Shown: piece after piece, positions 1,307-17,788 of the stretch
Position numbering within the stretch: the first letter of the stretch is position 1
Layout of the letters: each line of letters opens with the position of its first letter
Assembly (NCBI RefSeq): GCF_003569785.1
Contig: NZ_KZ983987.1
Span: forward strand, 186,001-250,000
Reading direction: 5' to 3'
Length of the DNA stretch: 64,000 nucleotides
DNA from: Leucobacter sp. wl10
Lineage (GTDB): Bacteria > Actinomycetota > Actinomycetes > Actinomycetales > Microbacteriaceae
Notes under the pieces: model-generated
Database searches by the model: none
What the model saw: the letters and a program-made list of their open reading frames with translations, nothing else
What the model was told of the DNA's origin: nothing
Translations under genes and position numbers: made by a program

Positions 1307-1345
1307 GCCCGGCCGTTCACCCCTGAAAACCCGAAGGAGAGAAGA

Positions 1346-2446: not shown

Positions 2447-2720
2447 ACGGTCGGCGAATCAGCGAGGCGGGACTCGGTGGCGGGCATCCACGCCCGTGCT
2501 ACGGGCTGGGATACTTCTCGGCTATGCTCGCTTCGCCGCTTCGCCGCTTCGCCGCTCCGGCGACCGGGGCCTGGCTGGTCTGCGCGACGAGGGCCGCTCC
2601 CCGGGCGATCGCGGGCGGGAGCGAGGGAACGCCCGACCAGGTGGTGCTGAACCCCGGAACCCCTCGCGAGGTGGGTGCGGAGCGGCGGCTACAATCGGCA
2701 CGAGGAGAGGAGCGCAGCGG

Positions 2721-3902: not shown

Positions 3903-3943
3903 CGCTCTCGCGGCCCGGCCCGCGGGAGCGTCACGAAGGCGGG

Positions 3944-4975
3944 TCAGCGCAGCACGAAGCCGTCGCCCAGAGGGTCCCGCGGGTCGAGCACGAAGCAGTG
4001 CTCGCCGGTGCGGAACGCCGTGCCCGAGACGCAGGGGATCACGGCGGGGACGCCGTTGTCGCGCGGGGGCGCCGGCTCCCAGCCGGCCCGGAACACCGTG
4101 TCCACGATGGAACGGTGCTCCAGCGACTCGCCCGCTCGCAGCGTGCCGTCGTCGGCCAGCAGCGCCACGCGGGCTCCCGTGCCGGATCCGCACGGCGAGC
4201 GATCCACCTCCCCGTCGGCGAAGACGACGACGTTGCGCTGCACGGGGCCCGTCGCACCGCGGCCGAGATCGTCCCACAGGATCGTCCCGTACACACCGGA
4301 GAGCCGGGGGTCGTCGGCGTGCCGCGCCCCGGGCGAATCGTCGAGCGCGCGCTTGACCTCGCGGCCGAGCGCGATGAGCTCCGGGTAGTGCTCCGGAGAC
4401 ACCGAGAGCCCGAGATCCGACGCCCGCACCGAGGCGTAGATCGCCCCGCTGAAGCTGAGATCCGCGAGCACCCGCCCTCGGCCCGTCTCGACCGGGATCC
4501 CGCGAGCGATCACGTGCGAGGCCACGTTGCGGAACGTCGCCTGCACCAACTCGCCGCCGCGACGTTCGACGAGCGCGGACACCCGGCCGGAGGGCACGTC
4601 GATGCGCACCTCGGTCACTCCGTCGGGGTCGCTCTCGACGACCCCGGTGTCGGTGGCCCACACGCCGAGAGCGATGGTGCCGTGCCCGCAGGCCGTCGAG
4701 AAGCCGTCCTTGTGCCAGAAGAGCACGCCGAGGTGGGCGCCGTCGTCATCGGGCGGCACGAGGAAGCCGCCGTACATGTCGGCGTGCCCCCGGGGCTCCT
4801 GGCACAGCAGCCGGCGCAGGGCGTCGGCGCCGTCGCCGTCCGCGATCGCGGAGAGGCGGCGCTCCGCCACCGTGAGCCCCGTCGGGAGCGGTGGGCGCTC
4901 GTGGACGATGCGGAACGGCTCGCCCGCCGTGTGGTAGTCCGTGGCGGTGATCGGGTGCGTCGGAGAGTCGGCCAT
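3944..4975 (-). CDS. Proline racemase family protein, probable 4-hydroxyproline 2-epimerase
   Basis: This 343-aa cytosolic enzyme of the proline racemase family is expected to invert the alpha-carbon of (hydroxy)proline by two-base catalysis without a cofactor. Both catalytic cysteines are present, C96 in the ACGHG motif and C262 in SPCGSGTG. The trans-3-hydroxyproline dehydratases of this family replace the second Cys by Thr, so this copy should be an epimerase or racemase. Length is normal (about 310-345 aa). It lies 17 bp downstream of the agmatine-deiminase gene and is probably co-transcribed with it. Together with the DapA-type and aldehyde dehydrogenase genes near 55-57 kb it could begin a trans-4-hydroxy-L-proline route, although those genes are 50 kb away. 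Confidence 0.8.
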   Translation of the reverse strand: MADSPTHPITATDYHTAGEPFRIVHERPPLPTGLTVAERRLSAIADGDGADALRRLLCQEPRGHADMYGGFLVPPDDDGAHLGVLFWHKDGFSTACGHGTIALGVWATDTGVVESDPDGVTEVRIDVPSGRVSALVERRGGELVQATFRNVASHVIARGIPVETGRGRVLADLSFSGAIYASVRASDLGLSVSPEHYPELIALGREVKRALDDSPGARHADDPRLSGVYGTILWDDLGRGATGPVQRNVVVFADGEVDRSPCGSGTGARVALLADDGTLRAGESLEHRSIVDTVFRAGWEPAPPRDNGVPAVIPCVSGTAFRTGEHCFVLDPRDPLGDGFVLR

Positions 4976-4992: not shown

Positions 4993-6018
4993 TCAGGCGA
5001 CCTTCGGCTGCTGCTGCGTGATGCAGTGGATGCCGCCGCCGCGGGCGAAGAGCGGCCGGGCGTCGATGCCGATCACCTCGCGGCCGGGGTAGATCTCGCG
5101 CAGCACCGCCAGGGCCCGGTCGTCGGCGGGGTCATCGAACGAGCAGGCGAGCACCGCGCCGTTGATGACGACGTGGTTGATGTAGCTGTAGTCGACGAAG
5201 CCCTCCTCGTCGCGCAGGGTCTCCGGTGCTGGCAGGTCGAGGATCTCGAAGCCGGCCGACGTATCGACGCGGTACTGCTCGGCGACGGCGCGGTTGGTCT
5301 TCGCGATGAGGTGATCCGGGTGCGATTCGGCGTCCTGGCGGTGCATCAGCAGCACGTCCGGCGTCGCGAACGCGGCGAGGATATCGGAGTGGCCACGGGT
5401 GCCGAAGGTGTCGTGGTCGCGCGTCAGACCCCGGGGCAGCCACATGGCGCTCGTCGTCCCGATGGTGCGCTCGAGCTCGGCCTCGACCCGCTCCCGCGTC
5501 CAGCCGGGGTTGCGGCCCGGGTCGAGCTGCACGGTCTTCGTGAGGATCACGCGCCCGGTGCCATCGACCTGGATGCCGCCTCCCTCGTTGGTCATCTCGG
5601 AGTTCACCAGCTCGGCTCCGGCGGCCTCCGCGACGATGCGGCCGATGTGCTGATCCCTGTCCCACTGCGCCCAGTCCTGCGCGCCCCAGCCGTTGAACAC
5701 GAAGTCGACGGCGCCGAGCCGGCCGTCGTCCCCGATCACGAAGCTGGGCCCGATGTCGCGCATCCACGCGTCGTCGAGGGGCGCGGTGAGGCGGTCGATC
5801 TGCGCCGAGAGGTAGCTCGAGGCGATCTCCTCGTCGCCGGGGTTGACCACGACGGTCACCGGCTCGAACTCACTGGCGGCGTTGGCGACGGCCGCCCAGG
5901 TGGTGCGCGCCTCCTCGACCTCGGCCTCGGTCTCGCCGAGGGTGTACCCGCTCGTCGGCCACGCGAGCCACAGCCGATCCTGCTCGTGCCCCTCGATGGG
6001 CATGCGCCACGTCGTCAT
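4993..6018 (-). CDS. aguA: Agmatine deiminase family protein
   Basis: This 341-aa protein belongs to the peptidyl-arginine-deiminase-like guanidine-modifying family. The best-known bacterial member converts agmatine to N-carbamoylputrescine and ammonia. Visible hallmarks are the tryptophan-rich start with LAWPTSG, the substrate motif WMRDIGPSF near residue 85, ENEGGG-like NEGGGIQVDG near 145, the catalytic His in GHSDIL, and the nucleophilic C332 in GGGIHCITQQ. A TAGACT box upstream and a GAGGAG ribosome site precede the ATG. It is the first gene of a two-gene operon with the racemase/epimerase, so the substrate may be a guanidino or cyclic amino acid rather than agmatine. Confidence 0.85.
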   Translation of the reverse strand: MTTWRMPIEGHEQDRLWLAWPTSGYTLGETEAEVEEARTTWAAVANAASEFEPVTVVVNPGDEEIASSYLSAQIDRLTAPLDDAWMRDIGPSFVIGDDGRLGAVDFVFNGWGAQDWAQWDRDQHIGRIVAEAAGAELVNSEMTNEGGGIQVDGTGRVILTKTVQLDPGRNPGWTRERVEAELERTIGTTSAMWLPRGLTRDHDTFGTRGHSDILAAFATPDVLLMHRQDAESHPDHLIAKTNRAVAEQYRVDTSAGFEILDLPAPETLRDEEGFVDYSYINHVVINGAVLACSFDDPADDRALAVLREIYPGREVIGIDARPLFARGGGIHCITQQQPKVA

Positions 6019-6659: not shown

Positions 6660-6698
6660 GTCCCGTCCGATCGTGATGCAGTGCGATCCGAATAATTC

Positions 6699-6716
6699 AT
6701 TCATATTTGCATGAAT
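6699..6716. promoter_or_regulatory. Candidate operator ATTCAT-N6-ATGAAT upstream of the APC permease
   Basis: This is a perfect 6-bp inverted repeat in an AT-rich island. It directly abuts TTGAGCG (6717-6723), an element also present upstream of the P450 promoter at nearly the same distance from the -35 box. Confidence 0.45.
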
Positions 6717-6855: not shown

Positions 6856-8352
6856 ATGTCACACAACAGCACCGTCGTGGAGCACGACGAGGACGCCGCC
6901 CATCTCGCGTCACTCGGCTACTCGTACGACACGACCTTCAAGCGCGAGATGAGCTTCTGGGGCAACGTCTCGCTCGGGTTCACCTACCTCTCGCCCATCG
7001 CGGGCGTCTACTCGATGTTCGCGATCTCGCTCGGCCAGGCGGGACCGCCCATGGCCTGGGCGCTCATCATCGCACTCGCGGGGCAGTTCCTCGTCGCGCT
7101 CATCTTCGGCGAAGTGGTCTCCAACTACCCTGTGGCCGGCGGCGTCTACCCCTGGTCGCGCCGTCTCTGGGGGCGCAAGTGGGCGTGGATGAACGGCTGG
7201 ATCTACGTGGTCGCCCTGGTCGGCACGCTCGCCGCGGTGGCGTACGGCGCAGCACCGTTCGTGGCCTCGATCTTCGGCCGCAGTCTCGATGCGGGCGGCA
7301 CCGTGCTCGTGGCGCTGGGCACTCTCGTCATAGCCACGTTCCTCAATTTCTCGGGAACGAGGGTGCTGAGTATCGCCGCGACCGTCGGTCTCATCGCCGA
7401 GATGGTCGGCGCGGTCGGGATCAGCCTCTACCTGCTGCTCTTCCATCGCCAGCAGGACTGGTCTGTGGTCTTCGACAATCAGGGGATCGGCGACGACGCG
7501 GCCGGGGGCTACCTGGGTGCGTTCGCGGCGGCGGCCCTCATCGGCATGTTCGCATACTACGGATTCGAGGCGAACGGGGACGTGGCGGAGGAGATCAAGG
7601 ACCCGGGCCGTAAAGTGCCGAAGGCGATGCGCATGACGCTCTACATCGGCGGCTTCGCCGCGAACGTGCTCGTGTTCTCGCTCGTGTTCGCGGTGCCCGA
7701 CTTCGCCGCGGTGGCGAGCGGCGAGGTGGCCGATCCGATCGGCGAGGCGCTGCAGAACGCCTTCGGCCCGGTGTTCCCCTTGGTCATGCTCGTCGTGGTG
7801 ATCGCGTTCATCTCGTGCATCACAAGCCTGCAGGCCGCCGCGAGCCGCCTCGTGTACTCGATGGCCCGCGACGGGTTCCTGCCCGCTTCGGGTTTTCTCG
7901 CCCGCTTCAACGAGAAGCGCCACGTGCCGAGCAGTGCGCTGCTCACCGCCGCTTTCTTCCCCGCCGCGGTGGTGGTGCTCTCGTTGCTGCTCGAGGACGC
8001 GCTCACCGCGATGGTCGGCTTCGGCACCGTCGGCATCTACATCGGCTTCCAGATGGTGGTGCTCGCCGCGCTGCGCGCCCGTCTGATGGGATGGAGGCCC
8101 GCGGGCAAGTTCCGCCTCGGGGCCTGGGCGTACCCGGTCAACGTGCTCGCGCTGGTGTGGGGCATCGCGGCGGTGCTCAACATCCTGTGGCCGCGCCCCA
8201 CGGGCGGCGGCTGGGCCGAGGACTACCTGCTGATCATGACAACCGTAGGCGTGATCGTGGTCGGCTGGGTCTACATGCTCGCCTCGAAGGCGTACGCGAA
8301 AGGCGACGCTCCGGCCGGCGACGCGAGCGGGCCGGTCGAGGTCGTGGGCTGA
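6856..8352 (+). CDS. APC-family amino acid/amine permease
   Basis: This 498-aa integral membrane permease resembles the amino acid/polyamine/organocation family of GABA- and amine-type transporters. A short cytosolic N-terminus is followed by SFWGNVSLGFTYLSP, typical of the first discontinuous helix. The protein has about 12 hydrophobic segments and the conserved YYGFEANGDVAEEIKDPGRKVPKA stretch (positions 230-255, given here only in part) in the loop after helix 6. The ATG at 6856 was chosen over a GTG at 6829 because AAGGGAG precedes it. The leader shares GGGAGTAC with the P450 gene leader. As first gene of the accessory cluster it probably imports the substrate that the P450 and gamma-glutamyl enzymes process. 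The C26 hydrolase follows 103 bp downstream. Confidence 0.85.
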   Translation: MSHNSTVVEHDEDAAHLASLGYSYDTTFKREMSFWGNVSLGFTYLSPIAGVYSMFAISLGQAGPPMAWALIIALAGQFLVALIFGEVVSNYPVAGGVYPWSRRLWGRKWAWMNGWIYVVALVGTLAAVAYGAAPFVASIFGRSLDAGGTVLVALGTLVIATFLNFSGTRVLSIAATVGLIAEMVGAVGISLYLLLFHRQQDWSVVFDNQGIGDDAAGGYLGAFAAAALIGMFAYYGFEANGDVAEEIKDPGRKVPKAMRMTLYIGGFAANVLVFSLVFAVPDFAAVASGEVADPIGEALQNAFGPVFPLVMLVVVIAFISCITSLQAAASRLVYSMARDGFLPASGFLARFNEKRHVPSSALLTAAFFPAAVVVLSLLLEDALTAMVGFGTVGIYIGFQMVVLAALRARLMGWRPAGKFRLGAWAYPVNVLALVWGIAAVLNILWPRPTGGGWAEDYLLIMTTVGVIVVGWVYMLASKAYAKGDAPAGDASGPVEVVG

Positions 8353-8455
8353 CGCGGCCCCGCCGATTCACCGCTCGGGAGTCTTGTCGTGCCGCTCCGC
8401 ATGGACACGGTGCGACGGGGCTCCCGCGCACCCGCCGCAGTCGAAAGGATCCCCG

Positions 8456-9238
8456 ATGACCGACCTCGCGGTCGACCCGACCCCCTTTCTCGCCGTGGGC
8501 GACGAGGATCCGGGCGGTCCGCTGATCAGGATGGTGGTGTCGCTCACCTTCCCCGGAATGGACCGGCGCTCGCAGCGGCTGCAGGACGAGTTCACCCGGA
8601 TCGCGTTCGACGCCGTTCGCGCGGCGGGCGGGCGGCCGCGAATCGTGGATTCTGCGGCGGATCGCCTGGCGCCCGGGGACGAGGTCTTCGAGGCTGCGGG
8701 CGGCGTCGTGTTCCTCGGCGGCGGCGACGTCGACCCGGACTGCTACGGCTACGGCGGCGCCCCGCCCGAGAACCTCTACGGCGTGGATCGCCGGGCCGAC
8801 GACCACTGCATCGGCTTGATCCGCGAGGCGGCGCAGCGGGATCTGCCCACGCTCGCGATCTGCCGCGGCTCGCAACTGCTCAACGTCGCGTTCGGCGGCA
8901 CGCTGATCCCCGACATCGAGAACTGGCCGCTCCACAGGGGCGGGCGGGGGGAGCCGCTCTTCATCGACGAGGAGGTGCTGCTCGAGGCCGGCTCGGAGAT
9001 CGCGCGGATCTTCGGCCGCACGCGTGCGGCCGTGCGCAACGGGCACCATCAGGCCGTCGACGCGGTGGGGGCGGATCTGCGCGGGATCGCCCGCGCCCGC
9101 GACGGCATCGTTGAGGCGACGCAGCACCGCGACGCGACCTGGATGATCGGCGTGCAGTGGCACCCCGAGGAACCCGACGCCGATCCGCGCGACCGGGCCC
9201 TGCTCTTCGGCGAGCTGGTGAAGCGCGCCTCGGCCTGA
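8456..9238 (+). CDS. Gamma-glutamyl-gamma-aminobutyrate hydrolase-like protein (peptidase C26), copy 1
   Basis: This 260-aa class-I glutamine-amidotransferase-fold hydrolase is related to PuuD, which cleaves gamma-glutamyl amides to glutamate and the free amine product. The catalytic Cys lies in LAICRGSQLLN and the His-Glu pair in GVQWHPEE. The oxyanion region GGGDVDPDCYGY is typical of C26 enzymes. The ATG follows AAAGGA by 6 nt. It lies downstream of the permease on the same strand and converges with the flavodoxin gene. The GS-like ligase gene of the cluster supports a gamma-glutamyl amide as substrate, but which amide is unknown. A second homologue lies at 14799. Confidence 0.8.
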   Translation: MTDLAVDPTPFLAVGDEDPGGPLIRMVVSLTFPGMDRRSQRLQDEFTRIAFDAVRAAGGRPRIVDSAADRLAPGDEVFEAAGGVVFLGGGDVDPDCYGYGGAPPENLYGVDRRADDHCIGLIREAAQRDLPTLAICRGSQLLNVAFGGTLIPDIENWPLHRGGRGEPLFIDEEVLLEAGSEIARIFGRTRAAVRNGHHQAVDAVGADLRGIARARDGIVEATQHRDATWMIGVQWHPEEPDADPRDRALLFGELVKRASA

Positions 9239-9306
9239 TTCCGCATGCCGACGAGAGGGTCCCCTGCCGGGGCGTCGGCCGGGGACCGCCGTCCGCTCGA
9301 GAGGGC

Positions 9307-9765
9307 TTATACCCTCGCCGAGGCCGCCTCGAGCACGCCGGGCAGCCACTCGAGTGCGACGTCGCTGCCCATGTCCCACGAGGAGGCGTCGTGGCGGCCG
9401 TAGTCGCCCACTCGCTCGGCGCCCTGCTGCGCGAAACGGCGGTCGATGTGCTCGCTGCCCCGGCTGTACGTCTCCTCGTAGAAGGTGTCGCCGAGGCCGA
9501 ACATGGCGTAGCGCACGCCGGTGAGGTCGGGGAGCGCGTCGTCGAAGGCCTCGGCGAAGGGGATCGCCGTGTTGGGCAGATCGCCCTCGCCGTGGGTGGA
9601 GCACACCACGAGATAGAGGCGATCGGGGGTGAGGACGGCCGGATCGAAGTCCTGCAGGTCGAAGACCTCGACGTCGTCGTGGGTCTCGCGCAGCTTCGCG
9701 CCGAGATCTTCGGCGATGAGCTCGGAGTTGCCGGATTCGGTGCCGTAGAGAACCGTGAACTTCAC
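9307..9765 (-). CDS. Flavodoxin
   Basis: This 152-aa FMN-binding electron carrier starts with the beta-strand and phosphate loop VLYGTESGNS. It has the second FMN loop STHGEGDLPNTA and the third loop GLGDTFYEETYSRG, the usual short-chain flavodoxin layout. The GTG start overlaps the reductase stop (GTGA), so the two proteins are translationally coupled. Because it is paired with an FprA-type reductase and divergent from a P450 gene, I infer it passes electrons from NADPH through the reductase to that P450. Most bacterial class-I P450s use a ferredoxin; a dedicated flavodoxin partner is known (for example CinC for P450cin) but uncommon. Confidence 0.88.
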   Translation of the reverse strand: MKFTVLYGTESGNSELIAEDLGAKLRETHDDVEVFDLQDFDPAVLTPDRLYLVVCSTHGEGDLPNTAIPFAEAFDDALPDLTGVRYAMFGLGDTFYEETYSRGSEHIDRRFAQQGAERVGDYGRHDASSWDMGSDVALEWLPGVLEAASARV

Positions 9766-11093
9766 AGCTGGCTTCCTCTCTGATGGAGCGTTGCGCTCGA
9801 GGTTCGGGGGTCTTCCGCGGTCGCGCCGCGGGCGACGGCGACCATGAGCTCGTGGTCGGGGAGCTTGTGCCTGACGCGGCCCGAGTGTGCGATGGATCGC
9901 TCGTGCTCGTCGAGCCGGAGCCACTGCTCGTAGCCGATCGCGCGATCCCGCACCTCCGAGGGGAGTCCGTCGAAGCCGGGTGCGGACGAGGAGGCGGAGA
10001 GCGAGCCGTCGACCAGGTCGGCGGCGATCTCGTCGGCGACCGCCCTGGCGCAGGCCCGGTTCTCGGGTATGGCCCCGCGCGGCCCGCGCTTGGCCCAGCC
10101 GGTGCGGTAGAGGCCGGGCTCGATGCGGCCGGACTCCGCGCCCTCGGCCGTGAGCGCCGCGAGCGCGTGATCGCGTTGCGTCGCGAAGCCGATGGCCGTG
10201 ATCACCGAGGTGGCGGGCACCGCGACGACCTCGTCGTCGGCTGCGAACTCGACCGCCTCGACGCGGCGGTCTCCTCGCACGCGCAGCGGGATGAGGCCGA
10301 ATCGCAGGGTGACCTCGGGGCCGTCGAAGCGGGCCCGCTCGGGAGCGACCATCTCGGAGATGGCCGAGACTCGGCCGGCGGCGACGCGGGCGAGCCGTGC
10401 CGCGGCGCCGGGTGCGACGGGATCCGGCGAGCTGTAGACGGCGCGGGGGAGCGTCGCGAGCTCCTTGAGCATCTGCGGGTCCCCCTTGGAGTCGGGAGCG
10501 GCGGACCGGCTGACGAGGGTGACGCGCTCGGCGGGGGCGGCGAGGTAGGAGTCGAGCGCCGCGTCCGCGACGTCGCTGCCCTCGTAGTCGGCGCGGCCCT
10601 TCACGAGGAAGCGCAGCACGTCGAGGGCGACATTGCCGCCGCCGATGATCACGACGTCGGATCCGAGTTCGGGCAGTGCGGCGCCCTCGTCGGGGTGGGC
10701 GTTGAGGGCGCGGGTGATCGCCCCGGCGCCGATCACGCCGGGCAGTTCGGCGCCGGGAACGCCGAGCTCGCGGTCGGCGCTGAGGCCCGTGGCGATCACC
10801 ACGGCGTCGAAGAGATCGCGCAGCTCGTCGAGGGAGACGTCCCGGCCCACCTCGATGCCGCCGGCGAAGCGCACGGCGTCGTGCTGGAAGAGGCGGTCGA
10901 ACTGCCGGGTGATGGCCTTCGTGTGCTGGTGGTCGGCGGCGACGCCGTACCGAACGAGTCCGAAGGGCGAGGCGAGGCGGTCGAGGATCGCGATCTCGCA
11001 GTCGGGCGCGACGCGCAGCAGCGACTGAGCGAGGTAGCAGCCCGAGGGGCCGCTGCCGATCACGGCGATCTTCGGGGTCGTGGGTGACGACAT
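9762..11093 (-). CDS. Ferredoxin/flavodoxin-NADP reductase, FprA type
   Basis: This 443-aa adrenodoxin-reductase-like flavoprotein should move electrons from NADPH to the flavodoxin encoded next. The FAD motif IAVIGSGPSGCYLAQSLL is at about residues 9-26 and the NADPH motif IIGGGNVALDVLRFL near 150. A late GWAKRGPRGAIPENR segment is characteristic of FprA proteins. The ATG at 11093 has AAGGAG upstream. It is transcribed away from the P450 gene, and its predicted promoter (TTCACA-17-TACACT) overlaps one arm of an inverted repeat, so both directions are probably controlled together. Confidence 0.9.
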   Translation of the reverse strand: MSSPTTPKIAVIGSGPSGCYLAQSLLRVAPDCEIAILDRLASPFGLVRYGVAADHQHTKAITRQFDRLFQHDAVRFAGGIEVGRDVSLDELRDLFDAVVIATGLSADRELGVPGAELPGVIGAGAITRALNAHPDEGAALPELGSDVVIIGGGNVALDVLRFLVKGRADYEGSDVADAALDSYLAAPAERVTLVSRSAAPDSKGDPQMLKELATLPRAVYSSPDPVAPGAAARLARVAAGRVSAISEMVAPERARFDGPEVTLRFGLIPLRVRGDRRVEAVEFAADDEVVAVPATSVITAIGFATQRDHALAALTAEGAESGRIEPGLYRTGWAKRGPRGAIPENRACARAVADEIAADLVDGSLSASSSAPGFDGLPSEVRDRAIGYEQWLRLDEHERSIAHSGRVRHKLPDHELMVAVARGATAEDPRTSSATLHQRGSQL

Positions 11094-11184
11094 CGCAGCT
11101 CCTTCGCGTTGCGCCGAGGCGGTTGAGCGGCGGCGGACGCTCCGCCGCGATCCGGCGCCTCGGCGCGTTCCGGTCGATGCACCC

Positions 11185-11213
11185 AGTGTATCCATAAAAG
11201 ATAATTATGTGAA
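11185..11213 (-). promoter_or_regulatory. Promoter of the reductase-flavodoxin operon
   Basis: On the minus strand TTCACA (11208-11213) and TACACT (11185-11190) are separated by exactly 17 bp. The -35 box lies inside the left arm of the inverted repeat at 11208-11234. Confidence 0.6.
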
Positions 11214-11234
11214 TGTTTTTGAGCGATATTCACA
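11208..11234. promoter_or_regulatory. Candidate operator TGTGAAT-N13-ATTCACA between reductase and P450 promoters
   Basis: Two perfect 7-bp arms have centres 20 bp (two helical turns) apart. The left arm overlaps the -35 box of the reductase operon. The right arm ends 28 bp before the P450 -35 box. The spacer holds TTGAGCG (11219-11225), which is shared with the permease promoter. Confidence 0.55.
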
Positions 11235-11262
11235 CATTAGTCCTAAACTAACCCTGAAATGC

Positions 11263-11291
11263 TTGCGATATAAATCATTCATAGGTAACTT
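11263..11291 (+). promoter_or_regulatory. Promoter of the P450 gene
   Basis: TTGCGA (11263-11268) and TAACTT (11286-11291) are separated by 17 bp, and the layout matches the permease promoter. About 55 nt of leader follow, with GAGGGAG before the ATG. Confidence 0.6.
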
Positions 11292-11349
11292 ATTTACCAC
11301 CGGCCGCTCGCGAAATCGAGCGGAGACAGAATTCGACGAGGGAGTACGA

Positions 11350-12588
11350 ATGACCGGACAGGCGACCCAGGAGGACGTGCCGTATCTCGACACCGCCTCG
11401 ACCGACTTCGCCATGAACTCCGAGGCGGTGCGCGACGCCCGCGCGCGCAGCTGGTACGCGAAGACCAACTACGGCTACGGCGTGCTGCGATACCGGGAGG
11501 TCACCGAGCTGCTGAAGCACCCGAGCCTGGGCCAGGGCAGCGCGAGGTGGCCGGATCACCACGGCGTGCACTCCGGCATCTTCTACGAGTGGTGGGCGAA
11601 GAACCTGCTCGTGCTCGAGGGCGAGGAGCACCACCGCATCCGACGCCTGCTCAACCCGGCGTTCTCGCCCGGGGTGGCGCGCAGGCTCGAGCCAGAGTTC
11701 GCCGCGATCGCGGAAGAGCTCATCGAGGGCATGAAGCAGAAGCACGCCCGCGGCGAGCAGGTCGAGTTCGTCGCCGACTTCTCGGAACCCTTCGCCACCC
11801 GCGCGCTCTGCGCCATGATGGGCCTCGACCACGAGCACTGGCCATTCATCGCCTCGCGCGCCAACACGGTCGGCTACGCGCTCAGCATCACCATCAAGCA
11901 GGACATCGAGCGCATCGACGAGGCCGTTCGCGAGCTCTACGACTTCGTCGATCGCCTCGTCGACGAGCGCCGCGAGCGCCCCGGTGACGACGTGGTCTCC
12001 CGCCTCGTGCAGTTCTCGCAGGCCGGCGACAAGCTGAGCGACGCCGAACTGCGCAACGCCCTCGTGCTCATGCTGTTCGGCGGCATGGACACCACACGCA
12101 ACCAGATCGGCCTGCTGCTGCAGACCTTCATGCGCAACCCGGAGCAGTGGGAACTGCTGGCTCGGGATCCCGAGAGGTACGCCAAGCCCGCCCTCGAAGA
12201 GGGGCTGCGCGTCAATCCCACCACCCGGTGGGTGACTCGCGAGGCCCACGAGGACTTCGAGTTCCACGGACTCGAGATCGAGAAGGGCACCACGGTGCAC
12301 CTCTTCACCATGTCGAGCGGCACCGATCCCGAGGCGTTCCCCGACCCCGAGATCGACCTCAACGCGGGCAGCGGGCCGGGCAGTGAGAAGCGCAAGCAGC
12401 ACCACACCTTCGGCGGCGGCATCCACCACTGCCTCGGGCACTACATCGCCCGCGCCGACATGAGCGTCGCGCTGCCGCTGCTGGCCCAGGCCTTCACGAA
12501 CATCTCCTGCCCCGGCGGCGACGAGTGGCTGCCCGACTCCGGCAACCACGGCCCCGTGCGCCTGCCCATCGACTTCACCGTGCGCTGA
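11350..12588 (+). CDS. Cytochrome P450
   Basis: This 412-aa soluble bacterial P450 carries all core motifs. The I-helix motif is GGMDTT (residues 244-249), the ExxR pair is E284/R287, and the haem-binding loop FGGGIHHCLGH has the axial C361. Length is normal for class-I bacterial enzymes and there is no membrane anchor. Redox partners are encoded divergently (FprA-type reductase and flavodoxin). The GS-like gene follows 42 bp downstream. Known piperidine/morpholine-degrading mycobacterial clusters also place a P450 beside a GS-like gene, so oxidation or N-dealkylation of an amine is a fair hypothesis. I cannot assign a CYP family or substrate from sequence alone. Confidence 0.92.
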   Translation: MTGQATQEDVPYLDTASTDFAMNSEAVRDARARSWYAKTNYGYGVLRYREVTELLKHPSLGQGSARWPDHHGVHSGIFYEWWAKNLLVLEGEEHHRIRRLLNPAFSPGVARRLEPEFAAIAEELIEGMKQKHARGEQVEFVADFSEPFATRALCAMMGLDHEHWPFIASRANTVGYALSITIKQDIERIDEAVRELYDFVDRLVDERRERPGDDVVSRLVQFSQAGDKLSDAELRNALVLMLFGGMDTTRNQIGLLLQTFMRNPEQWELLARDPERYAKPALEEGLRVNPTTRWVTREAHEDFEFHGLEIEKGTTVHLFTMSSGTDPEAFPDPEIDLNAGSGPGSEKRKQHHTFGGGIHHCLGHYIARADMSVALPLLAQAFTNISCPGGDEWLPDSGNHGPVRLPIDFTVR

Positions 12589-12630
12589 CGTTCCGCGGGC
12601 ACCAGACCTTCCACAGACGAAAGGAACCAC

Positions 12631-14067
12631 ATGTCCGACCTCAAGACGGGAGGGCGCTTCGGCGCCGCCCTGCGCGAGATCCTCGCCGACGACACGGCGT
12701 TCTCGCGGCATCGGGAGGCGAATCTCCGGCCCGAGACCGTGCGGGCGCTCGGCGAGCGGATCCGCGAGACCGGCGTCAGGTACATCTACTACATGCTCCC
12801 CACCCTCGGCAGCCGCACGGTCGCCAAGGTGGTGCCGGCCGATCTGTTCGAGCGCATGCTGCGCAAGGGCATCGCCTTCCACCGCACCGCGCTCACCGAC
12901 CTGCAAACGAGCCGCGGGGGCGAGCTGATCGGCGGGGGCGTCGACGCCCACGAGTTCTGGGGGCTGCCCGAGCCCGAGACCTTCCAAGTGCTGCCCTGGG
13001 ATCCCGAGGTCGGCCGCATCTTCTGCACCGCCTACGATCCGCCGCACCTCGGCGAGGACGGAGGACGCCTCGTCGCGCTCGACACGCGCGCGCTCTTCAA
13101 GGCCGCCCACCGCGGCTTCACCGAGCGCACGGGGCTCGAGCTGCGCAGCGGCCTCGAGCCGGAGATGACCTGGACCGGCCCCGGCATCGAAGTCGTCGCC
13201 AAGGAGGATCAGAGCCCCGCCTACCAGGTCGAGAACCTCGAGAAGATGCGTCCCGTCTTCAAGCGGGTGATCAGCTACGGCCGCGCGCTCGACTTCACCA
13301 TGATCCAGGGCGACTACGAGGACGACGGACAGATCGAGCTCAACTGGGACTACGACCGCGCCGACCGCACCGCCGAGCGCATGACCGCCTACCGCCAGAT
13401 CTGCAAGCAGGTGGCCCGCGAGCTCGGCCTCGAGGCCAGCTTCATGGCGAAGCCCTACAACGGCAAGATGGGCAACGGCTGCCACCACAACCTCAGCCTG
13501 TGGCGCGTCGCCGACGACGGCTCGGCCGAGAATGTGATCGAGGACGGACGCGTCGAGCTGCACGCCACCGAGACGGCGCGGCACGCGATCGCCGGTATGC
13601 TGCTGCACGCCCCCGGATCGATGCTCGTGATGGCCTCCACCGTCAACTCCTACAAGCGCTACTGGGACGCCGGGCAGTTCGCCCCGTCGGGCGCCGACTG
13701 GGGCCTGGACACCCGGGGCGTCGCGATCCGCGTCTCCGCGAACGGCCGCATGGAGTACCGCCTGCCCGATGCGAGCGTGAACCCCTACCTCTCTCACCTC
13801 TACCTGCTCGCGGCCATCGAGCACGGCCTCGAGGCGCGGTTGGAGCCGGGCGATCCCGGGCAGCCGAGCGAGGCGCTGCAGGGCGTCGTCGTGCCCAACA
13901 CGCTCGGCATGGCCATCGATTCGTTCGAGGCCGACGAGTACCTCATGGGTGCGATGCCCGAGGAGCTCACGCGCATCTTCCTGCAGCTCAAGCGCGACGA
14001 GTGGGCGCGCTACTGCGGGATCATCACGCAGTGGGAGTTCGATCAGTACTGGGAGGCGATCCCGTGA
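12631..14067 (+). CDS. Glutamine-synthetase-like gamma-glutamylamide ligase
   Basis: This 478-aa protein has the glutamine synthetase fold and active-site signatures. They are LEPEMTW (about 175-181), QIELNWDY (234-241), the ATP/metal loop NGCHHNLSLW (282-291), NSYKRYW (339-345), and EYRLPDASVNPYL near 375 with the family Arg. Sequence around these motifs departs from housekeeping GlnA and fits PuuA/IpuC/GlnA4-like enzymes, which ligate glutamate to amines. The context (P450 upstream, C26 hydrolase downstream, amine-type permease) supports a catabolic gamma-glutamylation step. The stop overlaps the next gene (GTGA). The accepted amine is unknown. Confidence 0.85.
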   Translation: MSDLKTGGRFGAALREILADDTAFSRHREANLRPETVRALGERIRETGVRYIYYMLPTLGSRTVAKVVPADLFERMLRKGIAFHRTALTDLQTSRGGELIGGGVDAHEFWGLPEPETFQVLPWDPEVGRIFCTAYDPPHLGEDGGRLVALDTRALFKAAHRGFTERTGLELRSGLEPEMTWTGPGIEVVAKEDQSPAYQVENLEKMRPVFKRVISYGRALDFTMIQGDYEDDGQIELNWDYDRADRTAERMTAYRQICKQVARELGLEASFMAKPYNGKMGNGCHHNLSLWRVADDGSAENVIEDGRVELHATETARHAIAGMLLHAPGSMLVMASTVNSYKRYWDAGQFAPSGADWGLDTRGVAIRVSANGRMEYRLPDASVNPYLSHLYLLAAIEHGLEARLEPGDPGQPSEALQGVVVPNTLGMAIDSFEADEYLMGAMPEELTRIFLQLKRDEWARYCGIITQWEFDQYWEAIP

Positions 14068-14798
14068 CCGCCGCGTACGCCGACGGGCGGACCATCCGCC
14101 TCGCGTGCATCGACTCGGAGGCCACGCCGCTCTTCTCGAAGAGTCCCGACGGCCGCACCCGCGGGGGCTACGAGCCCGAGGCGGCCGCGCTCGTGATGTC
14201 GCGGCTCGCCGGTGGAGCCGCCGACATCGAGTGGGTGATGGTGCCCTGGGAGGAGATGATCCCCTCGGTGCGCCGAGGCGACGCCGACGCCGTGTGGTGC
14301 GGCCAGGGCATCACCCCCGAGCGCTCCGCGCAGGTCGACTTCACGCGGCCCTACGCCGTGTTCAACGAGACCCTCGTCGTGCGATCAGGCGATCCCGCCC
14401 GCTCGCCCGAGCGGCTCGCGGGCTACCGGATCGGCGCGATCGCGGGCTCCACCAACATGAAGCTCGCCGAGACCTTTCCCGGCGTCGAGCTCGTGGGCTT
14501 CGGCGCGAGCGACGACGTCTTCGGCGACATGATCGAGGCGACCCGCTCGGGCGCGATCGACGGCTTCGTGGACGACGACGTGGTGATGATCCCGCTCGCC
14601 CGGGAGAACCACGACCTCGCGGAGGCGTTCACCGTGCAGACGCGCAATCGCTGGGGCGTCGGCGTCGCGCCGGGCGACGACCGGCTGCGCGAGGAGATCG
14701 ATCGCGCGATCGAGCAAGTCGTCGCCGACGGCTCGCTCGAGGCGGTCTGGCGCAGGTGGATGCCGCTGCTCGCCTTCCCGCTCGCGAGCGGGGCGTAG
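14064..14798 (+). CDS. Solute-binding-protein family 3-like protein without signal peptide
   Basis: This 244-aa protein has the bilobed SBP_bac_3 fold. Its start (IRLACIDSEATPLF), the central TRPYAVFNETLVV, the hinge region with GYRIGAIAGSTN, and the C-terminal helix with EAVWRRWMP follow the family order. It begins at a GTG that overlaps the GS-like stop codon. No secretion signal or lipobox precedes the fold, although ABC-transport binding proteins are normally exported, and no ABC permease or ATPase genes are nearby. It may therefore be a cytosolic enzyme (PheC-type dehydratases arose from this fold) or a ligand sensor. Its function is unknown. Confidence 0.75.
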   Translation: MTAAYADGRTIRLACIDSEATPLFSKSPDGRTRGGYEPEAAALVMSRLAGGAADIEWVMVPWEEMIPSVRRGDADAVWCGQGITPERSAQVDFTRPYAVFNETLVVRSGDPARSPERLAGYRIGAIAGSTNMKLAETFPGVELVGFGASDDVFGDMIEATRSGAIDGFVDDDVVMIPLARENHDLAEAFTVQTRNRWGVGVAPGDDRLREEIDRAIEQVVADGSLEAVWRRWMPLLAFPLASGA

Positions 14799-15515
14799 AT
14801 GGGCGCGCTCCGCGGCGACCGCGTGCCGCGCATCGGGGTCACGGGCATGTGGTCGAAGCAGATCCGCGGCCTGCGCTTCGACGGCAGTGCGGTCGCGGCG
14901 GCGGTGCTGCGCTCGGTGATCCGCGCGGGCGGAGAGCCGCTCGCCCTGTTCGCCGAGAGCGTGATGCAGCCCGAGGAGCGGCTGCGCGGCCTCGACGCGC
15001 TGCTCGTGCCGGGCGGGTCGGACGTCGATCCGCGCCGCTACGGGCAGCGGCCCCTCGAGGCGACCTCGCCCGCCGACTTCGCTGCGCAGGACGGCTTCGA
15101 GGCCGGGATGATGGCGGCCGCGATCCGGATCGGCCTGCCGACGCTCGCGATCTGCCGCGGATTCCAGTTGCTGAACGTCGAGCACGGCGGCACGCTGGTG
15201 CAGGATCTCGACGCCCACAGCGTGCACCGCGACGCGGTGCACGCTGTGGGCGTCGATCCCGGATCGGCGCTCGCCGCGGCGAGCGGCGCCTCGGAGCTGT
15301 CGGTGTCGTCCTATCATCATCAGGCGATCGACCGCGTCGGGGAGGGGCTCCGCGTCACCGGGCGCGCGCCCGACGGGGTCGTCGAGGCGCTCGAGCATCC
15401 CTCCGCACCGCTGATCGCGGTGCAGTGGCACCCCGAGGACGGCGCGGGCGAGGACGAGCGGCAGCACGCCCTCTTCGTCTGGCTCGTCGACGAGGCACGG
15501 GCGAGAATGGCATGA
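14799..15515 (+). CDS. Gamma-glutamyl-gamma-aminobutyrate hydrolase-like protein (peptidase C26), copy 2
   Basis: This 238-aa hydrolase has the catalytic Cys in LAICRGFQLLN and the His-Glu pair in AVQWHPEDGA. PGGSDVDPRRYG precedes them, and SYHHQAIDRVGEGL is a C26-typical stretch. The ATG begins directly after the stop of the SBP-like gene with no gap, so translation is coupled. It is a diverged homologue of the protein at 8456. Their shared cluster suggests either two gamma-glutamyl intermediates or a forward and a salvage hydrolase. Acting on a gamma-glutamyl amide made by the GS-like enzyme is inferred from context. Confidence 0.82.
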   Translation: MGALRGDRVPRIGVTGMWSKQIRGLRFDGSAVAAAVLRSVIRAGGEPLALFAESVMQPEERLRGLDALLVPGGSDVDPRRYGQRPLEATSPADFAAQDGFEAGMMAAAIRIGLPTLAICRGFQLLNVEHGGTLVQDLDAHSVHRDAVHAVGVDPGSALAAASGASELSVSSYHHQAIDRVGEGLRVTGRAPDGVVEALEHPSAPLIAVQWHPEDGAGEDERQHALFVWLVDEARARMA

Positions 15516-15585
15516 ACCCGCGACGGCATCGCGCGCGAGCGCACCGACCCGGGCATGAGGGAACGACACGCGAGGGGAGAACGGG

Positions 15586-16338
15586 ATGACCGGCGCACGA
15601 GTGCTCGTGGTCGAGCACCAGGGCAACGCCGGCCTGGGGCAGCTGTCCGATCGGCTGACCCGGAGCGGACTGCGGCTCGACACCGTCGGACCGGACGCGG
15701 GAGCCTCCGTGCCCGACTCGCTCGACGGCTACGACGCCCTGATCGTGCTGGGCGGAGCCACGGGCCCGACCGACGACGACGCCGCGCCCTGGCTGCCCGC
15801 GACGCGCAGGCTGCTCGCCGGCGGAGCGGAGCTGGGCGTGCCCACGCTCGGCATCTGCCTCGGCGCGCAGCTGCTCGCGACGGCGACCGGCGGCCGCGTG
15901 CGCGCGATGCCGGACGGCCCGGAGGTGGGGCTCTGCGACGTCGACTTCGGTTCGGCCGCGGCGACCGATCCGCTCTTCAGCGGACTCGCCGGCCGCTCGG
16001 CGCCGGCCGTGCAGTGGCACTGGCTCGAGGCCGACCGGCTGCCCGCGGGGGCCCGCGTGCTCGCCTCGAGCCCCGCCTGTCGCAACCAGGCCTTCCGGAT
16101 CGGCGACGCAGCGTGGGGCGTGCAGTTCCATCTCGAGGCGCTCGGGGCGACCGCGCAGGACTGGGTCGACGAGGATCGGCGGAGCCTCGACGAACTCGGG
16201 CTCGACGGGGCCGCGCTCGTGCGCGAGGTGCGCGACGCCGAGCCGCGGCTGGGCGCGGTGTGGCTGCCGATCGCCGACCGCTTCGCAGACATCGCGAAGC
16301 GGCCGGCCGGCCGGCCGGATCAGCCGACGGCGCGGTAG
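15586..16338 (+). CDS. Class-I glutamine amidotransferase-like protein
   Basis: This 250-aa protein resembles stand-alone GuaA-type amidotransferase domains. The nucleophilic Cys is in LGICLGAQLLATATGG, the catalytic His in VQFHLEA, and the oxyanion strand is VLGGATGPTDDD. It has no synthetase domain, so it may hydrolyse a gamma-glutamyl compound on its own. It is the third such triad hydrolase in the cluster. It follows copy 2 of the C26 genes after 70 bp on the same strand. Its 3' end overlaps the convergent Cache-protein gene by 19 bp. Confidence 0.8.
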   Translation: MTGARVLVVEHQGNAGLGQLSDRLTRSGLRLDTVGPDAGASVPDSLDGYDALIVLGGATGPTDDDAAPWLPATRRLLAGGAELGVPTLGICLGAQLLATATGGRVRAMPDGPEVGLCDVDFGSAAATDPLFSGLAGRSAPAVQWHWLEADRLPAGARVLASSPACRNQAFRIGDAAWGVQFHLEALGATAQDWVDEDRRSLDELGLDGAALVREVRDAEPRLGAVWLPIADRFADIAKRPAGRPDQPTAR

Positions 16339-17030
16339 AGCAGCTCCACCTCGGCGCCCTCGGGGCCGAGCCGCCTGCGGGTGAAGCCGTCGAGCGCGTC
16401 GGGCACGAACAGCCCGGGCAGCAGCCGCGAGGAGTTGCCGACCAGCACGTTGCCGTGGCGGCCCACCAGGGCCATCTCGACACCGCTCCGCTGCAGCACG
16501 GGCAGCAGTTCCGTCTCGAGATCGGCCACCTGGAGGTCGTTGCCGACGGCGCCCACGCGCACGCCGTCGACGGCGGCCGGAACGGTGAGGGTGAGCACGT
16601 ACGCCTCGACGCCGAGGTAGTCGATGTAGGGGCCCACGAGCGCGGGGACGCCATCCTGGAACGCTCGGGTGAACCACTCGTGGTGCTCGTAGTCGTAGTA
16701 GCGGTCGGCGCCGGGCACCACCCCGAAGGAGTAGCGGGCGAAGCGCGACTCGTCCTCGCGCACCCACCACTCCAGGTGTCCGCGCTCGAAGCTGAGCGCG
16801 GAGCGCGCGAAGATTAGACCGCAACCGTCGACGACCGCATTGTCGGCCAGGTAGCGCACCGCGAGCGCGCGCAGACGCCGGCGCACGGACTCGCCGAGGT
16901 CGAGCCGCGCCGACTCGTCGAGCCTCAGCAGCGCGATGAAGTCCTCGGCCAGCTTCTCGAGGTGGGAGAAGCGGTCGTCCAGCCACTCGTCGATGGTCGC
17001 GATGACCGCCGAGACCTCCGCCGTCGTCAT
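16320..17030 (-). CDS. Soluble Cache-domain protein, probable ligand sensor
   Basis: This 236-aa protein starts with a helical region (about 1-60) followed by a Cache/PDC-like fold. The fold is marked by RYYDYEHHEWFTRA, LVGPYIDYLG, VLTLTVPA and VGNDLQVADLE, and then a late VGRHGNVLVGNSS strand pair. Cache domains are usually extracellular sensor parts of receptors, but this one has no membrane segment, signal peptide or output domain. Its ATG overlaps the stop of the GntR gene (ATGA), so the two are made together. I infer that it binds the pathway substrate or intermediate and works with the regulator. This is not proven. Confidence 0.7.
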   Translation of the reverse strand: MTTAEVSAVIATIDEWLDDRFSHLEKLAEDFIALLRLDESARLDLGESVRRRLRALAVRYLADNAVVDGCGLIFARSALSFERGHLEWWVREDESRFARYSFGVVPGADRYYDYEHHEWFTRAFQDGVPALVGPYIDYLGVEAYVLTLTVPAAVDGVRVGAVGNDLQVADLETELLPVLQRSGVEMALVGRHGNVLVGNSSRLLPGLFVPDALDGFTRRRLGPEGAEVELLYRAVG

Positions 17031-17788
17031 CGCGCGGCTCCCGCGCCGTCCTCGTCGAGGGCGAGCTTGCCGTCGATGATGAGCCGCATGTTCCCCCTGA
17101 CGTGCTGGACGGCGAGGCGCTCCGCCTCGTCCGCCTGCTGCTGCTCGATCGCCATCACGATCGCGAGGTGCTCGGTGAAGGCCTGCTGCACCGAGGCGCG
17201 GCAGATCTCGTCGCACCACAGGAACGGCGACAGCTCGGAGTGCAGCCGCTGCTCACCCGAGAGCAGGCGCCTGGAGTGGCTGAGCACGGCGATCTCGAAG
17301 TGGAAACGGCTGTCGGCCAGCGAGCGCTCCCGCGCGTTGCGTCCCTCGCGGGCCTCGAACGCGAACTCGGCGAGCCGGGTGCGCAGGCCGGGCTGCGTGC
17401 GCTCCGCCGCAAGCCGAGCGGCCATGCCCGAGACGGCGGCGTGCTCGTCGAAGAAGTCCCGCAGGGCGACGAGGCTCGTACGCGCGAGCGAGGAGCGCAG
17501 CTCCTGCGGCGACGGGAACGGCGCCTGCGCCACGAAGGTGCCCCCGTTACGCCCCCGCCGCGTCTCCACGATGCCCTGGGCGCGCAGCTCCGCGAGGGCT
17601 TTGCGCAGGGTCGCCACCGCGACCCCGAACTGGTTCGCGAGCTCGGTTTCGACGGGCAGGCGCTCGCCGACCGTCAGCACGCCCATCGAGATCGCCGCGG
17701 CGATCCGCTGAGCGATCCCGCCGACGCTCGGGCCTGCGGGATCCCTCTCGCCGTGCTGCGGGGAATGCCCCAACGGGGGGTTCTGCAA
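17027..17788 (-). CDS. GntR/FadR-family transcriptional regulator
   Basis: This 253-aa regulator has an N-terminal winged helix (about residues 20-85; IAQRIAAAI, then LPVETELANQFGVAVATLRKAL and GGTFVAQ) and a C-terminal FCD-like helical ligand domain. The start is a TTG at 17788. A strong GAGGGGG ribosome site lies 5 nt upstream, and later in-frame Met codons would delete the DNA-binding domain. It begins 10 bp after the odhA stop, so it may be read through from odhA as well as from its own promoter. Its overlap with the Cache gene and its position at the cluster end make it the leading candidate to bind the operators at 6.7 and 11.2 kb. Confidence 0.83.
   Translation of the reverse strand: MQNPPLGHSPQHGERDPAGPSVGGIAQRIAAAISMGVLTVGERLPVETELANQFGVAVATLRKALAELRAQGIVETRRGRNGGTFVAQAPFPSPQELRSSLARTSLVALRDFFDEHAAVSGMAARLAAERTQPGLRTRLAEFAFEAREGRNARERSLADSRFHFEIAVLSHSRRLLSGEQRLHSELSPFLWCDEICRASVQQAFTEHLAIVMAIEQQQADEAERLAVQHVRGNMRLIIDGKLALDEDGAGAAR

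Follow-up and report, generated by a model that had tools for sequence, protein, structure and literature searches.

In this study, we analysed a stretch of 64,000 nucleotides of Leucobacter sp. wl10 DNA (contig NZ_KZ983987.1, positions 186,001 to 250,000; hereafter the window), in which eleven genes at 6856–17788 lie together around a cytochrome P450 and a glutamine-synthetase-like ligase. We favour, with confidence only a little above even, the reading that their expression is inducible and that they serve the catabolism of a small secondary amine, probably a cyclic one, in a manner akin to the PipA/MorA systems of mycobacteria; the substrate would probably be of the pyrrolidine, piperidine, piperazine, azepane or morpholine type. 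The P450–ligase kind of cluster is known, and what is new is a conserved, apparently cytosolic protein resembling solute-binding proteins (SBP) together with exchangeable electron carriers related to XplA and XplB of the hexahydro-1,3,5-trinitro-1,3,5-triazine (RDX) cluster of Gordonia sp. KTR9. Read in this way, the cluster would make the inventory of parts with which bacteria use cyclic amines more complete, a process relevant to solvents, pharmaceuticals and herbicides, and would offer a possible reason why a glutamine-synthetase-like gene adjoins a P450.

Gene content and recurrence of the cluster

The Leucobacter genome comprises 3.8 Mb in 64 contigs. All eleven genes are intact reading frames with supported family assignments, at the places given in a preliminary description made from the sequence alone, and family scans of the eleven proteins gave no match to an aldehyde dehydrogenase or aminotransferase family, in agreement with the same description. 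By direction the genes fall into three groups, namely the permease with the C26a hydrolase, the reductase with the flavodoxin running the opposite way, and the P450 followed by the ligase, the SBP-like protein, the C26b hydrolase and the GATase-like hydrolase; the Cache and GntR genes are oriented towards the last group.

The association of the P450 with the ligase is more than chance. Among 299 Microbacteriaceae genomes, 21 had the P450 (E <= 1e-60) and 18 had the ligase (E <= 1e-110), and all 18 ligase-bearing genomes also carried the P450, with the ligase within about 1.6 kb of it (Fisher p = 4e-26, relatedness ignored). In the remaining P450 genomes, G049 and G223 had no nearby ligase and G038 had only a ligase piece at a contig end. 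A P450 mostly apart from the gamma-glutamyl genes, which the preliminary description had named as grounds for doubt, was therefore not seen, as only 2 of the 21 genomes lacked a neighbouring ligase.

Related loci were collected from named genomes, other genomes and plasmid records, giving 63, and 56 after removal of near-identical P450s. The ligase was matched in 50 of these, four of them alphaproteobacterial with 37–38% identity, and was no more than 2 kb from the P450 in 47, and matches to the SBP-like protein, GntR, the APC permease and the Cache protein were found in 43, 41, 40 and 39 loci, respectively, some of the missing matches being contig ends. Of the 42 loci with both, 41 had the SBP-like gene and the ligase no more than 300 bases apart, the exception (L051) having its ligase match in two pieces. 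The search for this gene order in other Actinobacteria that the preliminary description had proposed thus revealed a recurring core, consisting of the P450, ligase, SBP-like protein, C26 hydrolases, Cache/GntR pair and APC permease, most or all of which is common to Leucobacter, Pseudoclavibacter, Arthrobacter, Paeniglutamicibacter, Kocuria and two genomes of family f6. We take the latter two to be mycolate-type because the arabinosyltransferase family is present in both, and among 14 controls it was matched only in Corynebacterium glutamicum.

The nearest named relative of the P450 is that of Leucobacter chironomi DSM 19883 (91% identity), and three of the seven genus-g1 genomes listed in the family survey carry the P450, so that the cluster is accessory in the genus. 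Wider searches found the P450 (E <= 1e-90) in 3 of 396 genomes of the phylum, the window's own included, and in 2 of 151 genomes of family f6, counts in which misses are possible since in P450-rich genomes scoring was limited to 4 to 12 first-look candidates; the scan of named genomes used exact peptide patterns, and its reach is limited to close relatives. Several divergent arrangements were also noted. One mycolate-type genome has another P450 copy (L092, G713 contig 13), after which the SBP gene comes directly, and its stretch gave no match to the ligase. Alphaproteobacterial versions (L080, L082, L075 and L077) have two glutamine-synthetase-like ligases side by side and no SBP match. On a plasmid of Streptomyces sp. 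NBC_00111 (L081, 7949–13113), a P450, a ferredoxin and a reductase lie between ectA/ectB-type and ectoine-synthase genes, a possible biosynthetic relative.

Ligase, hydrolases and sensor-like proteins

From its pocket residues, we infer that the ligase is a gamma-glutamyl amine ligase. When it was aligned with the genome's own GlnA, the Asp50 position was occupied by Gly and the Glu327 position by Phe in all 44 rows, with the alignment gapped around Asp50 and the Glu327 column firmer. These rows comprise 43 loci and the window: of the 50 matches, 44 passed 45% identity and 400 bits and the KTR9 fusion was dropped, and the counts leave out four alphaproteobacterial ligases, two contig-end pieces, a misframed GlnA2 translation and a paralog in L004. 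Other positions, with numbers and roles in glutamate, metal and ATP binding as we take them to be in glutamine synthetase, are largely kept, E129, E212, H269 and R321 in 44/44, R344 and E357 in 43/44, R339 in 40/44 (K in three) and R359 in 38/44 (K in five); the Y179 and N264 positions are changed, and E131 falls inside an alignment gap. The nearest PDB sequences are 7cql, which is titled type III glutamate--ammonia ligase and which is presumably a gamma-glutamylmethylamide synthetase, and the glutamate--methylamine ligase 9qur. The genome's own PuuA-like paralog also has Phe at the Glu327 position, and its locus (L107, 4082–10224, G000 contig 6) contains a C26 hydrolase, an ethanolamine-permease-like gene and an aldehyde dehydrogenase with aminobutyraldehyde dehydrogenase as best NCBIfam match, below the model cut-off.

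The replacement of both ammonia-site residues led us to reject an ordinary glutamine synthetase, and the sequence gives no sign that the ligase would act only in this ordinary way, which the preliminary description had raised as an objection to its own proposal. It is likewise highly improbable that the genes serve ordinary nitrogen assimilation, with a glutamine synthetase standing beside an unrelated P450. The ligase does belong to the glutamine synthetase family, and homologues in Gulosibacter are read as ammonium assimilation in the available text of PMC9477822, but the ligase never occurs without the P450 in the 299 genomes at the thresholds used, and a separate GlnA in the genome retains the Asp50 and Glu327 ammonia-site residues that are changed here.

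The catalytic residues of the three hydrolases are well kept, with Cys and His of C26a in 38/38 rows and its Glu in 37/38 (Asp in one), the Cys-His-Glu triad of C26b in 34/34 and the triad of the GATase-like hydrolase in 22/22.

In the SBP-like protein, an Arg and three Asp are present in all 44 rows over 40% identity, and we take these residues to hold the carboxylate and amino group of amino acids in the SBP family. The N-termini were short and free of a hydrophobic stretch in the 17 rows inspected (no signal-peptide program was used), and no ABC permease was found among the ten cluster proteins scanned. The AlphaFold model (predicted local distance difference test score, pLDDT, 92.4) has amino-acid and opine-type binders as its top fold matches, including SocA with glucopine or deoxyfructosylglutamine (Z 27.6, root-mean-square deviation (rmsd) 2.2, 228–229 aligned) and the glutamate binder 5eyf (Z 27.2), where matches within Z 1 count as tied; the fold alone says little, because all 1000 compared chains reached Z 8 or more. 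We propose a gamma-glutamyl compound as the putative ligand, because it presents the same amino-acid end.

Inspection by eye showed no hydrophobic segment in the Cache protein. Its residues for the amine end are kept, Tyr144 in 38/40 rows and Asp146 (its position as we take it to be) and Asp173 in 40/40, and the Arg with which amino-acid sensors bind the carboxylate (R126 of PctA; PMC10104139, available text) is lost in 39/40 rows; the comparison covered positions of the amino-acid motif. The protein thus does not fit an amino acid sensor of the dCache_1AA type, the carboxylate Arg126 (PctA numbering) being present in only one of the 40 rows. The predicted fold (pLDDT 92.8) supports the Cache assignment, and its best match is McpU with putrescine (Z 20.3, rmsd 3.3, 222 aligned). 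Nine of the first 11 fold matches are amine-linked receptors, by title or by the available text of PMC10104139, the other two being unassigned, and the first amino-acid receptor stands at rank 12 with Z 18.1, rows within 1 being tied; amine receptors were also among the leading Foldseek matches. As the fold is common to both kinds of receptor, an amine-sensing role for the Cache protein is a lead. Both this protein and the SBP-like protein are here in an unusual, apparently cytosolic setting. The ligase pocket, the hydrolase residues, the amine-sensor-like Cache protein and the co-occurrence of ligase and P450 agree with one another, and the gamma-glutamyl amine catabolism suggested in the preliminary description is supported.

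Proposed route and competing explanations

Considering these results, a plausible route can be proposed. The amine would be taken up by the APC permease and sensed by the Cache protein, which together with the GntR/FCD regulator would free promoters bearing the motif described below. Electrons from NADPH would pass through the FprA-like reductase and the flavodoxin to the P450, which, as for MorA and PipA, may hydroxylate the carbon adjoining the nitrogen, and the ring would open to an omega-aminoaldehyde. The ligase would then cap the freed amino group with glutamate, blocking reclosure to the cyclic imine, and the SBP-like protein may hold the gamma-glutamyl intermediate by its amino-acid end, as its kept Arg and Asp residues suggest. 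An aldehyde dehydrogenase encoded elsewhere would yield the acid, from which the C26 and GATase-like hydrolases would free glutamate and an omega-amino acid such as gamma-aminobutyrate (GABA). The genome has a GabT (above the cut-off) next to a gene like that of succinate semialdehyde dehydrogenase (SSADH; below the model cut-off), and this pair could use the released GABA. An aldehyde dehydrogenase gene stands 167–219 bases from the GntR gene in 9 of the 56 related loci, SSADH-like and below the cut-off in the two that were scanned.

Several known systems are close to this cluster. The mycobacterial pip and mor clusters share a P450 with a GntR regulator, a carrier and a glutamine-synthetase-like gene with the present cluster, and in the available text of PMC9477822 MorA with its partners oxidised free morpholine and PipA was induced on piperidine. 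The two mycolate-type f6 genomes, whose P450s range over 50–55% identity, have cluster P450s of 52/50%, ligases of 52/53% and SBP-like proteins of 56/46% identity, with C26, Cache, GntR and APC genes, and differ in their carriers, a ferredoxin with its reductase instead of the flavodoxin and FprA-like reductase found here. The BioI/PipA neighbourhoods of Gulosibacter molinativorax ON4 (molinate/azepane) have a P450, a ferredoxin reductase, a carrier and a glutamine synthetase at adjacent locus numbers, with P450s 52–53% identical to PipA/MorA; in contrast to the present cluster, a term search of the main text of that paper gave no C26 hydrolase, permease or Cache protein (PMC9477822). Paracoccus sp. 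TOH, a piperazine degrader according to a cited title ('Degradation of piperazine by Paracoccus sp. TOH'), has a 51% identical P450 with a fusion like cytochrome P450 reductase (CPR), two ligases, a C26 hydrolase, a GATase and two aldehyde dehydrogenases.

Several points weigh against this reading. The sequence cannot name the substrate, and the link to PipA/MorA rests on the available text of the Gulosibacter paper (PMC9477822), in which, after growth on molinate, one such P450 rose strongly and the gene named pipA did not rise significantly. The Paracoccus and Rhizobium clusters have a different ligase pair (37–38% identity at best) and no SBP match, so that the link to piperazine applies to the present cluster only partly. 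In two family genomes the P450 has no ligase nearby, the 50% identical Streptomyces P450 sits among ectoine-type biosynthesis genes, and two hydrolases plus a GATase exceed what the removal of a single cap needs. In addition, the order in which the P450 acts before the ligase is one that we infer.

The reverse order is a serious possibility, though we do not think it the probable one. Here a primary amine would first receive glutamate from the ligase, the resulting gamma-glutamyl amide would be hydroxylated by the P450 while bound to the SBP-like protein, and the hydrolases would then free the hydroxylated amine. Such an order would need no aldehyde dehydrogenase in the cluster, and it fits the amino-acid headgroup residues kept in 44/44 SBP rows. 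In the Ipu cluster of Paenarthrobacter aurescens TC1 (plasmid pTC1), a P450, ferredoxin, ferredoxin reductase and gamma-glutamyl ligase follow in this order, with a permease and amidotransferases, and P450 action on gamma-glutamyl-isopropylamide is described in the available text of PMC6776027, with the pathway assigned from earlier work. The Atd and Npa systems for aniline and 1-naphthylamine also glutamylate first and have a glutamine-synthetase-like ligase, a GAT-like hydrolase and an oxygenase, although this is a Rieske oxygenase and the substrates are aromatic (PMC11335346, available text). However, identity to the Ipu proteins is low, 27% for the P450 and 26% for IpuC, against 50–52% and 52–53% for the two mycolate-type genomes; oxidation of free morpholine by MorA is reported (PMC9477822), and aldehyde dehydrogenases do adjoin the cluster in some relatives. 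On these identities an orthologue of Ipu was rejected, and its stretch, unlike ours, has no annotated SBP or Cache gene. The Puu putrescine pathway follows a similar logic with an APC permease, a ligase and a C26 hydrolase, whereas in the present cluster the P450 replaces the amine oxidase and an aldehyde dehydrogenase is lacking. The statement in the preliminary description that no known pathway combines all these parts is not supported, since the Ipu cluster has comparable parts and the P450–ligase neighbourhood of Gulosibacter is published; of its proposal of a new amine-degradation system, the amine and gamma-glutamyl character can be kept, and the novelty cannot, in view of the resemblance to the PipA/MorA clusters and to the logic of Ipu.

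We regard it as improbable that the P450 and the ligase tailor an amine-containing metabolite, in detoxification or biosynthesis, with no role in growth. The 50% identical P450 of Streptomyces sp. NBC_00111 among ectoine-type genes could be taken in this sense, but the cluster itself encodes gamma-glutamyl hydrolases, an importer and a pair of regulators resembling an amine sensor system, and no biosynthetic family was the best above-cut-off match of any of the eleven proteins, the scan being confined to these. Titles and abstract openings in the open-licence literature gave no published gamma-glutamyl route for cyclic amines and no origin of XplA/XplB as read here.

Electron carriers, operator-like motif and neighbouring genes

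The P450 heme Cys, ExxR motif and Thr are present in 57/57 rows, with Asp as the acid residue in 55 of them and Glu in the other two. The carriers found with these P450s in relatives are a flavodoxin with an FprA-like reductase, a ferredoxin with a reductase, a ferredoxin alone or a CPR-like fusion. On a tree of 58 P450 rows, the carrier type changed five times, compared with a least possible number of three and a mean of 21.4 after shuffling; the tree was built by a quick method and leaves 16 of its 55 inner branches open, and the count is made without the 10 rows having no carrier label. The few changes on the tree indicate that the core seems to keep its partners, while the electron carriers are exchanged now and then.

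The window reductase is 41% identical to XplB, which is 29% identical to the genome's own FprA-like paralog, and the flavodoxin domain of XplA is 39–50% identical to cluster flavodoxins, including 42% to that of the window. In Gordonia sp. KTR9 (L079, 12470–19481), related GntR, Cache and P450 genes accompany a single frame that encodes a ligase together with an XplB-like reductase, and XplA follows. Two of these KTR9 genes we take to be XplA and XplB, the record itself being without those names. This RDX cluster on pGKT2 has GntR, Cache, P450 and ligase proteins of 43%, 31%, 48% and 54% identity, and it differs from the present cluster in that the flavodoxin is fused to another P450 (XplA) and no C26, SBP or APC match was found in its 29 kb stretch. 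A Gordonia plasmid with xplA and xplB is cited in PMC4226467 (available text). On the tree, the P450 of KTR9 clusters with one f6 row of the ferredoxin type and one row from Streptomyces (approximate likelihood ratio test, SH-aLRT, 98), and so the carriers and the P450 there may have separate histories. The carriers of the present cluster suggest a possible origin for the electron carriers of the RDX-degrading P450. Within the favoured cyclic-amine route, we put forward as speculative, and rather unlikely taken as a whole, that the SBP-like protein is a dedicated intracellular carrier, or an SBP-derived enzyme, for the gamma-glutamyl-capped aminoaldehyde, with the pathway protecting this reactive ring-opened compound through its cap and its transfer from ligase to hydrolase, while the electron carriers have repeatedly changed and the XplA flavodoxin and XplB are of the same carrier lineage.

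The motif TAAAACATTCA occurs between the reductase and the P450 with one copy per direction (Table 1). At up to 2 mismatches, the window contains 3 copies where 0.55 are expected, all in promoters of the cluster, and 0 of 100 shuffles had 3; a longer form of the pattern was weaker, its 3 matches being equalled by 1 of 100 shuffles. In 19 relatives with the same arrangement, exact copies numbered 19 in 4,366 intergenic bases, 2 before the permease and 0 in the rest of the 378,463 bases of these loci, and the corresponding counts were 27, 2 and 3 at 1 mismatch and 31, 9 and 14 at 2. Since these same loci supplied the motif, the intergenic count gives no independent test, and the informative part is how rare the motif is elsewhere. 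Of 20 loci whose P450 is similar, 15 have a same-direction copy ahead of it and 16 have a reverse one, and in several more distant loci the motif lies inside a 26-base palindrome before the P450. The motif is rare before GntR (1/19), the agmatine-deiminase-like gene AguA (1/9), the ligase (0/20) and C26a (0/18). Its importance is weakened by the five of 20 loci lacking the same-direction copy and by the loci outside this group, only 7 of 36 of which have a copy at up to 1 mismatch within 300 bases before the P450. That GntR binds the motif is a guess. Neither the single site from a scan for consensus promoters (0.6 expected) nor the single terminator-like site (2.7 expected) stands out from shuffles.

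Table 1. Features of the proposed amine cluster and its operator-like elements in the window.
Feature	Position	Strand	Remarks
Weak motif copy upstream of permease	6693..6703	+	2 mismatches
APC family permease, proposed amine importer	6856..8352	+	Pfam AA_permease_2, 155.7 bits; matched in 40/56 related loci
C26 gamma-glutamyl hydrolase a, PuuD-like	8456..9238	+	Pfam Peptidase_C26; Cys136/His236/Glu238
Flavodoxin, proposed P450 electron carrier	9307..9765	-	Pfam Flavodoxin_1; best PDB sequence match cindoxin 4oxx
FprA/adrenodoxin-reductase-like reductase	9762..11093	-	Nearest PDB sequences adrenodoxin reductase 1cjc and FprA 1lqt
Operator-like element, reductase/flavodoxin unit	11195..11220	-	Core motif 11210-11220, 1 mismatch
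Operator-like element, P450 unit	11271..11296	+	Core 11271-11281, 1 mismatch; imperfect 26-base palindrome
Cytochrome P450, judged PipA/MorA-like from its neighbourhood and the identities reported for relatives	11350..12588	+	Pfam p450
Glutamine-synthetase-like ligase, putative gamma-glutamyl amine ligase	12631..14067	+	Pfam Gln-synt_C
SBP-fold protein (SBP family 3), apparently cytosolic	14064..14798	+	Pfam SBP_bac_3; Arg87, Asp170-172
C26 gamma-glutamyl hydrolase b	14799..15515	+	Pfam match; Cys119/His211/Glu213; PDB matches include PuuD 6vtv
Class-I glutamine-amidotransferase-like hydrolase	15586..16338	+	Pfam GATase; triad kept
Cache protein, proposed amine sensor, no membrane segment evident	16320..17030	-	dCache_1 similarity below Pfam cut-off
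GntR/FCD transcription regulator	17027..17788	-	Pfam GntR and FCD; 4-base overlap with Cache gene

Upstream of the amine cluster, the genes at 8–4975 of the window may form a cluster for hydroxyproline use. They encode an MFS transporter, an enolase-family protein like cis-3-hydroxyproline dehydratase, an amidohydrolase like Xaa-Pro dipeptidase and a proline-racemase-family protein like trans-3-hydroxyproline dehydratase, all of these assignments being below the NCBIfam cut-offs. They are followed at 4993–6018 by AguA. The hydroxyproline genes and AguA were considered as parts of the amine system and rejected, with AguA matched in 9 of the 56 loci, the trans-3-hydroxyproline dehydratase in 3 of 56 and the motif standing before AguA in one of nine; the nine loci with AguA all have a P450 of at least 77% identity.

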